Source of the DNA: Planococcus plakortidis | GTDB lineage: Bacteria > Bacillota > Bacilli > Bacillales_A > Planococcaceae | Assembly (NCBI RefSeq): GCF_001687605.2 | Contig: NZ_CP016539.2 | Location: forward strand, 1,394,501 to 1,458,500 | DNA: 64,000 nucleotides | Direction of reading: 5' to 3' | Part shown: piece after piece, positions 7,965-55,463 of the stretch | Layout: the number at the start of each line of letters is the position of its first letter | How positions within the stretch are numbered: position 1 is the first letter of the stretch | Position numbers and translations under genes: made by a program | The notes under the pieces: generated by a model | The model's database searches: none | Seen by the model: the letters and a program-made list of their open reading frames with translations, nothing else | Told to the model about the DNA's origin: nothing

Positions 7965-8054
7965 GTTGCAGCGAATAGCTGACACAGATTGTAGACGAGA
8001 TAATTAGAAAAGTGAGCGAGGTAGATTGTTTTTTTGTAGGATTCGTCGCAAGAT

Positions 8055-8145
8055 AGCCGCCTCCCGCTTGGGGCATGCCTCCCACAATAAGCCAAGAAGA
8101 ACACTTGTCTTATTGCTCCGGCTCGCCCGTGTACGCGGTTCGGCT
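8055..8145 (-). repeat. Dispersed copy of the structured ~90-nt element (copy E)
   Basis: Read on the minus strand this block aligns over about 100 nt with each of the four tandem units at 44.6-45.5 kb, including near-identity over the apical hairpin. It can fold as a closing stem AGCCG/CGGCT, then GGGC/GCCC, GCC/GGC, and a long hairpin GCAATAAG-A-CAAG ... CTTG-G-CTTATTGT. Several base pairs differ from the tandem copies but remain paired, which argues for a structured RNA. It has no obvious promoter or T-run of its own. Confidence 0.75.
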
Positions 8146-8344
8146 TATAGATTTCTTTGAATGTTAGGTGCGAAGAAGTGTCACTGTTAATTGTTTTTAT
8201 CTGTTCTTGGCGACGCTTAGCTGGACTTGATATTGCAGAGAACTTCCGTACGCTATTCAATTTGAATTTACGAAGACAATTAAGTTTTTCACGCTTACTT
8301 CAGTGTATGATGAATTTCATTTCTTCTTTAAAACTAGAGATGAA

Positions 8345-8456
8345 GCGGAAAGGGGCGACTCTGGAGGGATCAGGACGAGCTGAAGACCCTGGACTGAGCG
8401 CTAGCGAGGGAAGCGGCTGAAGCCGGCCCCCTCAGAAAGCGTCCCCTTGAAGCGAT
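8345..8456 (+). repeat. Interspersed palindromic repeat, long form (copy R1)
   Basis: Terminal arms AAAGGGGCGAC and GCGTCCCCTT are complementary. The interior carries the family hallmarks in diverged form: GACTC near the left end, GAAGACCCTGG, a central GCGCTAGCGAGG, and GAAAGCGTC near the right end. It matches the better preserved copies at 36.8 and 55.2 kb. Confidence 0.7.
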
Positions 8457-8786
8457 ATCTCCACCAAATGCATTTCCTATTTAAATTCGTTAATTACAAT
8501 TTTTCCTAATTCAACATCATGAAAATCACCATTCATTGTGCATAAGTTCACAGTCAATTCCGACTACGAGCGTTATACTTGTGACTGCATAATCGCTTTG
8601 CTAGAATTGTAATCAAGTTAAGTTTAGAATCATTATAAAGTGGAGTTTCCGAAGTGGAAACCCTTTCAGGATAAAGCAATGTTCGAGCAGGTTCATGCCT
8701 TGTTCACAAAATCGCAGGCATAATCTGATGGAAAAGTGGTATACTTAGGGAAATGAAATATGGAACGCGAAAGGTGTTTTAAACCC

Positions 8787-16374: not shown

Positions 16375-16617
16375 GATATTGATGCGTTGATGAGGATAGT
16401 AAAGTGTCGGGGACATTTCAGAGAGAAAGCCGAGTGGTGAGAGGCTTTCATGTTCCGCATTTGAATGTCACCTCGGAGCAGTTGCCGTGAACAGAGTAGC
16501 GGAAACCGGATGTGAATCCGTTATCGAACTTGAGAGCCAGGCGAATTCTGCCTGTGTATAAAGGTGGTACCGCGAAAAACTCCTTCGTCCTTTACGTGAC
16601 GACAGGAGTTTTTTTGT
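16375..16617 (+). promoter_or_regulatory. T-box riboswitch (tRNA-Val sensing) upstream of valS
   Basis: The antiterminator T-box sequence AAGGTGGTACCGCG is present at 16561-16574, preceded by about 190 nt of structured leader with a stem I whose 3' side contains the likely specifier GTC (16467-16469) in GAATGTCACC. It is followed by an intrinsic terminator, AACTCCT/AGGAGTT plus a T-run (about 16576-16617). Uncharged tRNA-Val would pair at the specifier and the bulge and stabilise the antiterminator, raising valS expression on valine starvation. Confidence 0.95.
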
Positions 16618-36716: not shown

Positions 36717-36790
36717 ATTATAATTTTATTATGTAATCTAAAAAAGATATAAGTATGAATTAGTATTTTAAATAATAAACAAGATATGGA

Positions 36791-36900
36791 GCAGAACACC
36801 GGAGACTCTCGCGGGAAGCGAGAAAGATGAGACCCCGCAAGTCGAGAAGCGACTGAGGAGGCTCAGCGCTCGCCCGTAGGAAAGCGAAGGTGTTCTGCGG
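36791..36900 (+). repeat. Interspersed palindromic repeat, long form (copy R3)
   Basis: Perfect 10-bp terminal inverted arms GCAGAACACC / GGTGTTCTGC. Inside are GAGACTCTCGCGGGA, TGAGACCCCGC, CTGAGGAGGCTCAG and GGAAAGCGA. This is the best preserved copy for defining the ends of the family. Confidence 0.85.
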
Positions 36901-43438: not shown

Positions 43439-44242
43439 GTGGGAGAAGCTATCGTAATTACATCAGGCAAGGGAGGCGTCGGTAAAACGACGACGACTGC
43501 GAACCTCGGCACTGCATTGGCTCTTCAAGGCAAAAAAGTGTGCTTGATCGATACCGACATCGGGCTTCGCAACCTCGATGTCATTTTGGGCCTCGAGAAC
43601 CGCATCATCTACGATTTGATCGATGTGCTCGAAGGCCGCTGCAAAATCCACCAGGCACTTGTCAAAGACAAGCGTTTTGAAGACAAATTATTCCTGCTTC
43701 CGGCAGCCCAGACGGCCGATAAGAACGACGTCAACCCGGAGCAGATGAAAGAATTGATCGAAGGGATGAAAACGGAATACGATTTCATCATCATCGATTG
43801 CCCGGCCGGCATCGAACAAGGCTATAAGAACGCCGTCGCCGGTGCAGACCGCGCAATCGTCGTGACGACGCCCGAGATTTCGGCCGTCCGCGACGCAGAC
43901 CGCATCATCGGCTTGCTTGAGCTGGAGGAAAACCTGGAAGCGCCGAAACTCATCATCAACCGCATCCGCCCGCATTTGATGGAAGCGGGGGACGCACTCG
44001 ATGTCAACGAGATCACGACACATTTATCGATCGACCTGCTCGGCATCGTGCCGGATGACGAACGTGTCATCTCGAGCTCGAACAAAGGCGAACCGGTCGT
44101 CATGGACCCATCGAACCCGGCAGCGCTCGGCTACCGCAACATCGCACGCCGCCTGCTAGGTGAATCGGTTCCGCTCATGACCATGGACAAGCCAAAACCC
44201 GGCATGTTCGGCAAGCTGAAATCCATTTTCTCAAGCAAATAA
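43439..44242 (+). CDS. minD: Septum site-determining ATPase MinD
   Basis: A 267-residue ParA/MinD ATPase with the deviant Walker A SGKGGVGKTTTTANLG, switch motifs DTDIGLRNLD and IIDCPAGIEQG, and a C-terminal amphipathic membrane helix (GMFGKLKSIFSSK). It recruits MinC to the membrane. GTG start with AAGGAGGAAG upstream. It ends the mre-min unit at a strong terminator. Confidence 0.96.
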   Translation: MGEAIVITSGKGGVGKTTTTANLGTALALQGKKVCLIDTDIGLRNLDVILGLENRIIYDLIDVLEGRCKIHQALVKDKRFEDKLFLLPAAQTADKNDVNPEQMKELIEGMKTEYDFIIIDCPAGIEQGYKNAVAGADRAIVVTTPEISAVRDADRIIGLLELEENLEAPKLIINRIRPHLMEAGDALDVNEITTHLSIDLLGIVPDDERVISSSNKGEPVVMDPSNPAALGYRNIARRLLGESVPLMTMDKPKPGMFGKLKSIFSSK

Positions 44243-44256
44243 TGTTCTTATAGTAG

Positions 44257-44288
44257 AAACGCCACTGCATTTGCGGTGGCGTTTTTGT
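44257..44288 (+). terminator. Terminator after minD
   Basis: A 12-bp stem AAACGCCACTGC / GCGGTGGCGTTT (one T-G pair) with loop ATTT, followed by TTTTGTTTT. Confidence 0.93.
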
Positions 44289-44327
44289 TTTGTAGAATTT
44301 GAGAAAGGAGAACTGTAGTGGTTGGCT

Positions 44328-44443
44328 TGCGCTCCGGGCGGATGCTTTCCGAGGGGTGGGAATCGAGCCTCCTCGTTCGCTTTGCTCTCTGCGGGGTCTC
44401 TCATACCCACTGATCCCTCAGGAGTCACCGCCCTGCGCTCCAG
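44328..44443 (-). repeat. Interspersed palindromic repeat, long form, inverted (copy R6)
   Basis: On the minus strand it reads GGGCGG-tGACTCCTGAGGGA, then GAGACCCCGC, CGAGGAGGCTCG, CGGAAAGCA and CCGCCC. The arms GGGCGG/CCGCCC are complementary. Same family as the copies at 8.3, 36.8 and 55.2 kb. Confidence 0.78.
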
Positions 44444-44661
44444 CCATTGTTGCATGTGAAAGCTCTAGAGCATCACAATTTATTTGTAGTGAGAGATCTA
44501 GTTAAAATTTCATCACAAGCTATCGATGCAGAAGTTTCTATTCATAGCTCGTTACTAGTGCTAAACCATGACATCATGAGAGGGAAGCGATTTCCCCACG
44601 AGCCGGAAATTAACTACAGAAACAGATTTGTTTGAACAAACACATATCAACGTAATCTTTC

Positions 44662-44752
44662 AGCCGACCAGCGCCGAGGGTGAGCCGATGCCGTAAGACA
44701 AGTGTTCTTCTTGGCTTATGGCAAGAGGCCAACCCAAAGCCAGGAGGCGGAA
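44662..44752 (+). repeat. Structured element, unit A
   Basis: Stems: AGCCG near the 5' end with CGG near the 3' end, GGGT/ACCC, GCC/GGC, and the apical hairpin GCCGTAAG-A-CAAG ... CTTG-G-CTTATGGC with loop TGTTCTT. The plus strand is chosen by likeness to units C and D; the transcribed strand is not known. Confidence 0.7.
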
Positions 44753-44905
44753 TTCCAATGTGAAGCAGAATTGAACAACTAGAACCTCTGTACATGCTTT
44801 ACGTAGCAAATCGTATAAGCCAGCAGGGAAGCGATTCCCCCACGAGCCGGCAACTACCTATAGAAGCAGAACTATCTAAACAAACATGAACCAATGAAAT
44901 CTTCC

Positions 44906-44997
44906 AGTCGACCAGCGCCCAGGGTGAGCCGAAGCAATGAGACAGATGTTCTTTCTGGCTCATTGTGAGAGGCCAAGCCAAAGCAGGGAGGCGGAAT
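44906..44997 (+). repeat. Structured element, unit B
   Basis: Apical hairpin GCAATGAG-A-CAGA ... TCTG-G-CTCATTGT. Compared with unit A, several pairs changed on both sides: C-G to A-T, A-T to G-C, and the inner CAAG/CTTG to CAGA/TCTG. The lower stem has one mismatch (GGGT with AGCC). Confidence 0.7.
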
Positions 44998-45147
44998 TCT
45001 AAAATGACAAAAACTCGAACACAAGCAATATTGCCACACACTTCATTCTGCAAATCGCATAACCTGACAAGGAAGCGATTCCCCCACGAGCCGGCAACTA
45101 ACTATAAAAGCAGATCTGTTTAAAGAAAATGAACCAATGAAATCTCC

Positions 45148-45242
45148 GAGCCGACCAGCGCCAAGGGTGAGCCGATGCCGTAAGACAAGTGTTCTTCTTG
45201 GCTTATGGCAAGAGGCCAACCCAAAGCCGGGAGGCGACGCTC
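45148..45242 (+). repeat. Structured element, unit C
   Basis: Same apical hairpin as unit A. The closing stem is GAGC with GCTC plus CG/CG around a 2-nt bulge. Lower stem GGGT/ACCC and GCC/GGC intact. Confidence 0.7.
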
Positions 45243-45392
45243 CAAAATGATGAAAATTTGAACACAAACGATATTGCCACATTCTTCATTCTGCAAATCA
45301 CATAACTAGATAGGAAAGCGATTCCCCCACTAGCCGGCCACTGCCTATAGAAGCAGATCTATTTAAACAAACCTGAATCAATGAAATCTCCC

Positions 45393-45485
45393 AGCCGACC
45401 AGCGTCCAGGGTGAGCCGATACCGTAAGACAGGCGGTCTTTCTGGCTTATGGCAAGAGGCCAACCCAAAGCCGGGAGGCGACGCT
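45393..45485 (+). repeat. Structured element, unit D
   Basis: Apical hairpin ACCGTAAG-A-CAGG ... TCTG-G-CTTATGG with a changed loop (CGGTCTT); inner pairs keep complementarity with one G-T. Lower stems GGGT/ACCC and GCC/GGC are intact, closing stem AGC/GCT. Confidence 0.7.
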
Positions 45486-45631
45486 CCAAAATGACGCAAA
45501 CTCGAACACAAGCAACATCACCACACTCTTCATTCCAAAAATCACAAGCTAGTAAAGAAACAATATTCCCTTCCTTTGACCACAATCCCAGGAATCGAAT
45601 GAACTCATCACCAACTCTTTTCAGTTCCCTG

Positions 45632-45661
45632 TTGACGCGGGTCTCTGCCGCATGATATTAT
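45632..45661 (+). promoter_or_regulatory. Promoter of rplU operon
   Basis: TTGACG (45632-45637), 18-nt spacer ending in TGa, TATTAT (45656-45661). Transcription from here would produce the L21 leader. Confidence 0.75.
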
Positions 45662-55086: not shown

Positions 55087-55463
55087 GTCCATTGGGAAAT
55101 CCACTATACTCTAACTGAACAAAGCTATTTAAAGCCTTTTTAAGAACAATATTATGCAACACAACTGAAGCTGTGGATTGAGTGACCTATTTTGGTTTAT
55201 TTCCCATCTAATGTATATACTCAAATGAAAGAGTGGAAGGCGGCGACTCCTGCGGGAATAGTATGAGTCTTGAGACCCCACAGGAAGCGAAGCGACCGAG
55301 GAGGCTCAAGCCATGCCCGCGGAAAGCGTCCGCCTGGAGCGATTTCATTAACTTATTTTAACCAAAATAAATTAAACAATTTTCCAAAAATTTTCATGCA
55401 TTTGTTCTAAAATTTCCACCTGGGAGTTACAATGGAAACAGAACTGCAGAAAGGAGCACCGAC
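55087..55463. other. Gene-free interval between yajC and comN
   Basis: It contains a long-form palindrome (55235-55342). B. subtilis has yrzE, yrbG and spoVB in this interval; none is seen. Confidence 0.65.
55235..55342 (+). repeat. Interspersed palindromic repeat, long form (copy R5)
   Basis: Arms AGGCGG (55238-55243) and CCGCCT (55330-55335). Interior: CGACTCCTGCGGGAA, TTGAGACCCCAC, CGAGGAGGCTCAAG, CCCGCGGAAAGCG. The inner TTGAG/CTCAA also pair. Confidence 0.83.

Follow-up and report, generated by a model that had tools for sequence, protein, structure and literature searches.

An undescribed family of composite hairpin repeats interspersed in Planococcus genomes, with a possible role as RNA at gene 3' ends

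Interspersed repeats in bacteria are often taken as passive mobile debris. Bacteria also contain large modular structured RNAs, such as OLE, GOLLD and ROOL, and the composite repeat described here resembles them. What is the nearest described kind of element? Likened by description and not by sequence, it appears to be the bcr repeats (bcr1-bcr18) of the Bacillus cereus group, which are likewise multi-copy intergenic repeats of a Gram-positive group. According to the available part of the source (PMC3446304), the fold is conserved in bcr10 and bcr18. In two strains, 84 of 165 and 62 of 155 bcr copies were placed within transcripts, as parts of UTRs, of operon spacers or of non-coding units. 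Longer half-lives were seen for genes that share a transcript with bcr3, although the authors of that study consider it hard to draw a conclusion from this link.

The repeat analysed here was noticed as a tandem array in a stretch of 64,000 nucleotides from the Planococcus plakortidis chromosome, hereafter the window. None of the Rfam 15 covariance models reached its gathering score over the array or over the R2 module introduced below, and the sub-threshold matches were only to eukaryotic snoRNA and miRNA families, with E values of 1.5 to 8.5 that look like chance. A preliminary description had proposed this Rfam check. The composite was not found in the literature on repeats and structured non-coding RNAs of Planococcus, Planococcaceae and Sporosarcina, most subscription papers lying outside the search, and the terms planococc- and sporosarcina are absent from the main text of two non-coding RNA surveys, as far as these sources were accessible (PMC11109978, PMC8632094). 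Within the bounds of the literature and Rfam searched, the composite repeat has not been described before.

The array consists of four direct copies of a unit of about 244 bp, as the preliminary description had claimed. These U units follow one another at start-to-start spacings of 244, 243 and 244 nt, span 44582-45524 in all by their profile-HMM limits (Table 1), and are 79.7-86.1% identical in pairwise BLASTN comparison, with a best E value between different units of 7.7e-75. The fifth copy that it mentions is present as well, elsewhere in the window and in diverged form. What the earlier account missed is that U is one module of a composite, in which a hairpin module of about 140 nt, R2, is followed by a linker and then by one to four U units. 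The U units are thus the 3' part of this composite, and the element reaches farther upstream than had been noted, to 44314. The gene upstream of the array, which we take to be MinD-like, is followed by a probable terminator whose 13-nt inverted repeat has a 2-nt loop, and which was not listed by a pattern scan that needs loops of 3-8 nt. The same scan of the window listed no promoter-like site between this terminator and unit 1. Downstream, the known L21 leader (RF00559; 45685-45758 in the Rfam search) adjoins the array, and the best promoter-like site in the window (45632-45661) lies between the array and rplU. This site and the L21 leader part the array from rplU, and the suggestion that the units form a tandem ligand-sensing leader is therefore not borne out here. 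The window also holds two more R2-like modules on the minus strand, at 36777-36886 and 55225-55346, which have no adjoining U match, and a T-box leader at 16378-16595 (124 bits, Rfam search).

Table 1. Coordinates of the composite repeat and neighbouring features in the window
Feature	Position	Strand	Basis or remark
Inverted repeat then T-run, probable terminator of upstream gene (43439-44242)	44257..44284	+	
R2 module: extended hairpin with imperfect pairing; the composite's other covarying module	44314..44454	+	HMM match just 5' of unit 1
Linker, R2 to unit 1	44455..44581	+	
U unit 1	44582..44793	+	Profile HMM; structured core 44656-44758
U unit 2	44826..45037	+	Profile HMM; core 44900-45002
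U unit 3	45071..45280	+	Profile HMM; core 45143-45245
U unit 4	45314..45524	+	Profile HMM; core 45387-45489; weak fold by itself
Tail past unit 4, at the would-be start of a next unit	45525..45555	+	
Fifth U copy, diverged type, different 5' half	8034..8178	-	Core 8051-8151
R2 module on the strand of the fifth U copy, about 150 nt 5' of it	8328..8467	-	HMM match

Each U unit carries a core for which a fold plan had been drawn from the window alone. The closing stem, the GGGY/RCCC and GCC/GGC helices, the apical hairpin of 8 + 4 bp, its A.G mismatch and its 7-nt loop agree with the predicted plus-strand folds, with a correction to the closing stem: here it consists of GCC/GGC plus CC/GG with two non-standard pairs between, and the two columns concerned are both unpaired in all 27 distinct cores of the rplU locus. 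The claim that at least four pairs change on both sides holds in the alignment by eye, where units 1 and 3 differ from unit 2 at four pairs (C-G/A-U, A-U/G-C, A-U/G-C and G-C/A-U). We built a covariance model of the U core (R1; 102 positions, 28 pairs) from 43 copies. Matches that were short or split (8 of 51) were left out of alignment A2, and those spanning at most 175 model positions (18 of 53) were left out of alignment A1. Covariation was assessed on wider alignments against shuffled and slid controls, and the U core goes beyond them both with 43 copies and with 119 distinct cores. Among the 43 cores of the window's genome, the proportion of paired cells is 93.5%; shuffling lowers it to 87.3% (sd 0.5), and none of 500 shuffles attains the observed value. 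Pairing falls to 25-46% when the register is slid, and 14 of the 28 pairs show two-sided changes. The 119 distinct cores come from 120 matches at 72 chosen loci in other clades of the genus and in other genera. Fitted to the covariance model, an alignment that leans in the model's favour, they have 88.6% of cells paired, against 77.7% shuffled and 30-42% slid, with two-sided changes in 21 of 28 pairs and none of 500 shuffles reaching any of five measures. In this set the two long inner helices are paired in 96.9 and 97.9% of cells, and the weak parts are the closing stem (66.5%) and one apical pair (57.8%). The U core is a structured element with covariation beyond that of shuffled and slid controls, and we regard the existence of the repeat family and its fold as close to certain.

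Which strand folds? G-U cells outnumber A-C cells over the whole core (41 to 16 in the 43 copies, 67 to 36 in the second set) and within the inner helices (32 to 10 in alignment A2, 44 to 17 in A4), which points to the plus strand. For a whole U unit from elsewhere the absolute energy favours the opposite strand (-84.2, against -77.1 for the plus strand), but in comparison with shuffles it is the plus strand that stands out (z -2.54, against -0.72). Unit 4 of the window, taken by itself, is hardly more stable than its shuffles (z -0.61; 48 of 200 equal or exceed it), and its absolute energy is lower on the opposite strand. These observations bear on a function at the DNA level, in which hairpins extruded from single-stranded or supercoiled DNA would serve as binding sites, as for REP/BIME. 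The extragenic, mostly 3' positions of the arrays and the inverted pairs in Sporosarcina-type genomes (both described below) would suit such a function, but the strand-asymmetric wobble pairs, the size of the domain and its internal loops point to one folded strand, and we consider a DNA-level role very improbable, although that one strand could be single-stranded DNA.

The family is multi-copy, both tandem and dispersed, as had been proposed. Searched by BLASTN against the 3.26 Mb chromosome that contains the window, one U unit gave 52 matches with E values of at most 1, and the U-core covariance model gave 47 matches in this genome, which form 34 arrays (31, and those near 65.6, 2414.2 and 2421.1 kb). 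Of 31 arrays, 18 have one unit, 8 have two, 4 have three and one has four, where three units split by insertion were each counted as two pieces. U has two subtypes that share the core and differ in their 5' halves, and partial copies and end remnants occur. R2 came to light through recurring open reading frames upstream of the arrays, which proved to be translations of this second repeat. It lies upstream, on the same strand, of 28 of the 34 U arrays in the window's genome, with one match weak; this count combines 19 of 31 arrays, several of which had short flanks, with 7 more and with the arrays near 65.6 and 2421.1 kb. In 23 of the 28, R2 lies 109-168 nt from the array; in the other five, four of which match only part of R2, the distance is 389-474 nt. 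No opposite-strand R2 is listed among the array flanks searched for it in this genome. R2 shows compensatory changes across 23 sequences, the window's own copy at 44314 left out, and that copy folds well on both strands (z -3.93 plus, -3.49 minus). A leader hairpin before R2 is also conserved.

Both modules contain insertions. By eye, R2 is broken up by inserted hairpins in several arrays, and three U copies carry 83-104 nt of extra sequence in their apical part, which is 73-92% identical over 37-84 nt to stretches of R2 regions at other loci. U units with an apical hairpin insert lie near 2476.6, 2774.6 and 2823.6 kb of genome G000 (L041, L038 and L035), and a similar hairpin is found inside R2 regions near 264, 365, 408, 442, 2487 and 2631 kb, as hairpins nested in hairpins. 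We also note that R2-like cores occur in another composite, with CTTTTTCAG-like and CTGAAAAG-like ends (L134, L136-L142, L144-L149, L153), which by eye often sits at gene terminators.

The U core matches all 46 Planococcus genomes and 89 of 261 genomes of the family Planococcaceae, in 5 of 19 genera; an order-wide search returned the same 261 genomes, and no match was found in 24 genomes of other families of the class, under stricter filters that can lose weak matches. Ten chosen genomes counted more fully hold 2 to 140 U cores each. Among the matches listed, the core pattern occurs in at least 80 records, from Planococcus, Sporosarcina, Filibacter and three labelled Arthrobacter (L281, L284 and L289); L281 has 38-45% G+C per kilobase, so its label or assembly is doubtful. 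In Sporosarcina-type genomes the U cores can form inverted pairs, and direct pairs too (L107, L108, L109, L118, L128, L130); the inverted cores are 141-144 nt apart in four of the six pairs looked at, and 104 and 199 nt apart in the others. Phage records gave no match to the U core and viral contigs no exact-pattern match, and a phage origin was rejected. Spread by plasmids was rejected likewise: the sole matching record, plasmid-labelled, of 7,049 bp and with five matching places (L347, NZ_CP025126.1), has five annotated genes that include none for replication or transfer, and is perhaps a chromosome fragment rather than a plasmid.

The main rival explanation, one that we hold to be a real possibility though not a probable one, is that the composite is a selfish non-autonomous mobile repeat of MITE or REP type. 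Its resident copies would then be without function, the fold would be needed only for copying by a transposase acting in trans, and the positions 3' of genes would reflect the harm done by insertion elsewhere. The numbers of cores (47 in the window's genome and 2 to 140 in ten others), positions that differ between clades, the partial copies and end remnants, the further hairpin module that occurs apically in three U units as well as in R2 regions, and the inverted core pairs all agree with a mobile repeat. By eye, however, terminal inverted repeats or target duplications were not recognised. An exact empty site was not found, since the close species retain U at the four loci described below and the others are too diverged. 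Nor does a partner gene stand out among 371 open reading frames in 85 flanking loci, many of which overlap. The two largest clusters, of 39 frames from 31 loci and 32 frames from 22, appear to be R2 and U in translation. They are followed by ABC-transporter ATPases, at 11 loci, and short-chain dehydrogenases, at 6, which we take to be common families, so that no transposase stands out. A RAYT partner was considered and rejected. A Y1-transposase (RAYT-like) gene is present in G000 at 2348288-2348623, but U and R2 are absent from eight loci around RAYT-like genes, whose flanks carry another repeat, and 7 of 18 same-genus genomes searched gave no Y1 match, one of them holding 66 U cores. Several flanks of the RAYT-like genes (about 200 aa; L220-L226) bear GTCCCTGTGT-type inverted repeats.

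Where do the arrays lie with respect to genes? For 18 of the 34 arrays, gene orientation (from mechanical calls of open reading frames) and terminators were examined. The upstream gene is co-directional with the array in 15 of the 18, and by eye a terminator lies upstream of the array in 14. Eight arrays lie between convergent genes, seven have both neighbours co-directional, two have both opposed, and one, near 3244 kb, lies between divergent genes; this last is doubtful, for by eye a short co-directional gene, presumably a ribosomal-protein gene, seems to have been missed there. The abundance of convergent sites, with at most one doubtful divergent site, again agrees with a mobile repeat. 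With a co-directional downstream gene at only 8 of the 18 arrays, the proposed ligand-sensing leader fares no better elsewhere than in the window, and the mostly 3' placement of the arrays makes it unlikely. A metabolite riboswitch or other cis-leader, which would occupy the 5' UTR of a co-directional gene, is accordingly not supported. Alternatively, each array could be one gene for an independently transcribed small or long non-coding RNA, for example a multivalent sponge. The fixed order of R2, linker and U units, the conserved leader hairpin, the large covarying domains and the many paralogues are what such RNA genes would show, but the window scan lists no promoter-like site near R2, its strongest belonging to rplU, and the arrays follow co-directional genes in 15 of 18 cases; we judge this alternative unlikely. 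With a terminator ahead of most arrays, their transcription may also be slight, a point against an action as RNA.

The history of the composite can be followed at four conserved loci. For the minD-rplU locus, 30 loci were compared: one to four U units stand in place in 13 of them, three diverged units in another, and none in the remaining 16. R2 accompanies U in all 14 carriers, including the one with diverged units. U occurs in 12 of 30 loci at A (R2 too in 11), in 11 of 30 at B (R2 too in 8, three species having U pieces without R2), and in 13 of 18 analysed at C, where 20 were fetched (R2 too in 12). The flank matched 33, 41 and 46 of 46 genomes for A, B and C, so that the site was not found in some, and loci L161 and L352 end at contig ends, which does not imply absence of U there. 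The carriers of in-place U are the species nearest the window's genome, and no close species lacks U at rplU, A, B or C where its site could be located and is uncut by a contig end, with copy number moving between one and four across 11-13 close species. Units spanning fewer than 160 model positions (175 in the window's genome), including the three diverged ones of L089, were left out of a tree of 100 units. In this tree, the 28 units of the rplU locus, from 13 species, group in one clade (support 0.80) in which the species are mixed. The array at this locus therefore probably predates the species, and its copy number changed in place. At loci A and B, most but not all units cluster with others of their own locus, and some B units fall outside the locus clade. 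This presence of U in every close species with an uncut site found speaks against a selfish mobile repeat, as does the retention of pairing in old resident copies, though the flank was missing from some genomes and R2 is absent from three species at B. In distant Planococcus species, the same intergenic spots hold other short repeats by eye, TTCTATGATCACT-like or TTCATGTAGAA-like (L094, L097, L098, L101, L363-L365).

Is the fold maintained in these resident copies? In the 28 rplU-locus cores, which differ from one another by 14% on average, 98.6% of inner-helix cells are paired, whereas independent column shuffles give 93.1% (highest 94.7%). Neutral simulations matched for divergence (0.117, against 0.113 observed) give a mean of 84.5%, and the highest of 200 runs is 96.8%; with branch lengths halved (divergence 0.084, below that observed), the highest run reaches 98.5%. 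The simulations evolve independent sites along the tree from a fully paired ancestor, with an assumed transition bias and 200 runs per scale. At locus B, 98.1% of cells are paired, and matched runs give a mean of 90.2% and a highest value of 97.8%. Two-sided pairs are not above shuffles at either locus (five at rplU, reached by 193 of 500 shuffles; four at B, reached by 396 of 500). Thus, at rplU, pairing seems to be kept better than neutral drift predicts and the fold to be kept in place, and locus B shows the same less cleanly. Recombination between units could, however, keep the pairs intact without selection on each copy.

We tentatively favour, at somewhat less than an even chance, the view that the composite represents an undescribed family of interspersed modular RNA elements, with repeated binding domains, at or beyond the 3' ends of genes, a function suggested by sequence patterns. 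The data fit a dispersed family that multiplied by copying and whose members now largely stay where they are, with the fold preserved. The composite would work as RNA, as a folded stretch located at the 3' ends of the preceding genes or past them, and this RNA would arise by read-through or by weak autonomous transcription. Each U would offer a repeated site for binding of a putative protein or ribonuclease, and the bound factor would set the position of the transcript's 3' end, its stability or its insulation. Tandem duplication of U would then change the dose. The dispersal of the family points to spread by copying, as for a mobile repeat. Carried further, and here we are doubtful, one transcript with an R2 hairpin and one to four U units may form a multivalent binding array at gene 3' ends. 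The number of U copies at conserved loci would then tune the dose, and new modules would be gained as hairpins insert into other hairpins. Such insertion would be an unusual route of RNA growth. Since about a dozen species share these loci, with changing copy numbers and largely intact pairing, an RNA-level function is directly testable against selfish DNA.

How does this RNA-element reading compare with known systems? The L21 leader adjoins the array in the window but is a separate element, with a promoter-like site between the two. In comparison to OLE, GOLLD and ROOL, the array has no Rfam match and the composite has repeated domains and dozens of paralogues. REP/BIME elements with RAYT genes share with the family their extragenic hairpin repeats, the inverted pairs of Sporosarcina-type genomes and, in some U-family cores, a GTAG before the hairpin (L107). 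In contrast, the U core measures about 100 nt, against the 20-40 bp given in the accessible part of the source for REP (PMC3733652), and neither U nor R2 lies near the RAYT-like genes looked at. Finally, the bcr repeats belong to another taxon, and the present family differs from them in its composite of R2 and U, its tandem U units, and the variation in copy number at conserved loci.
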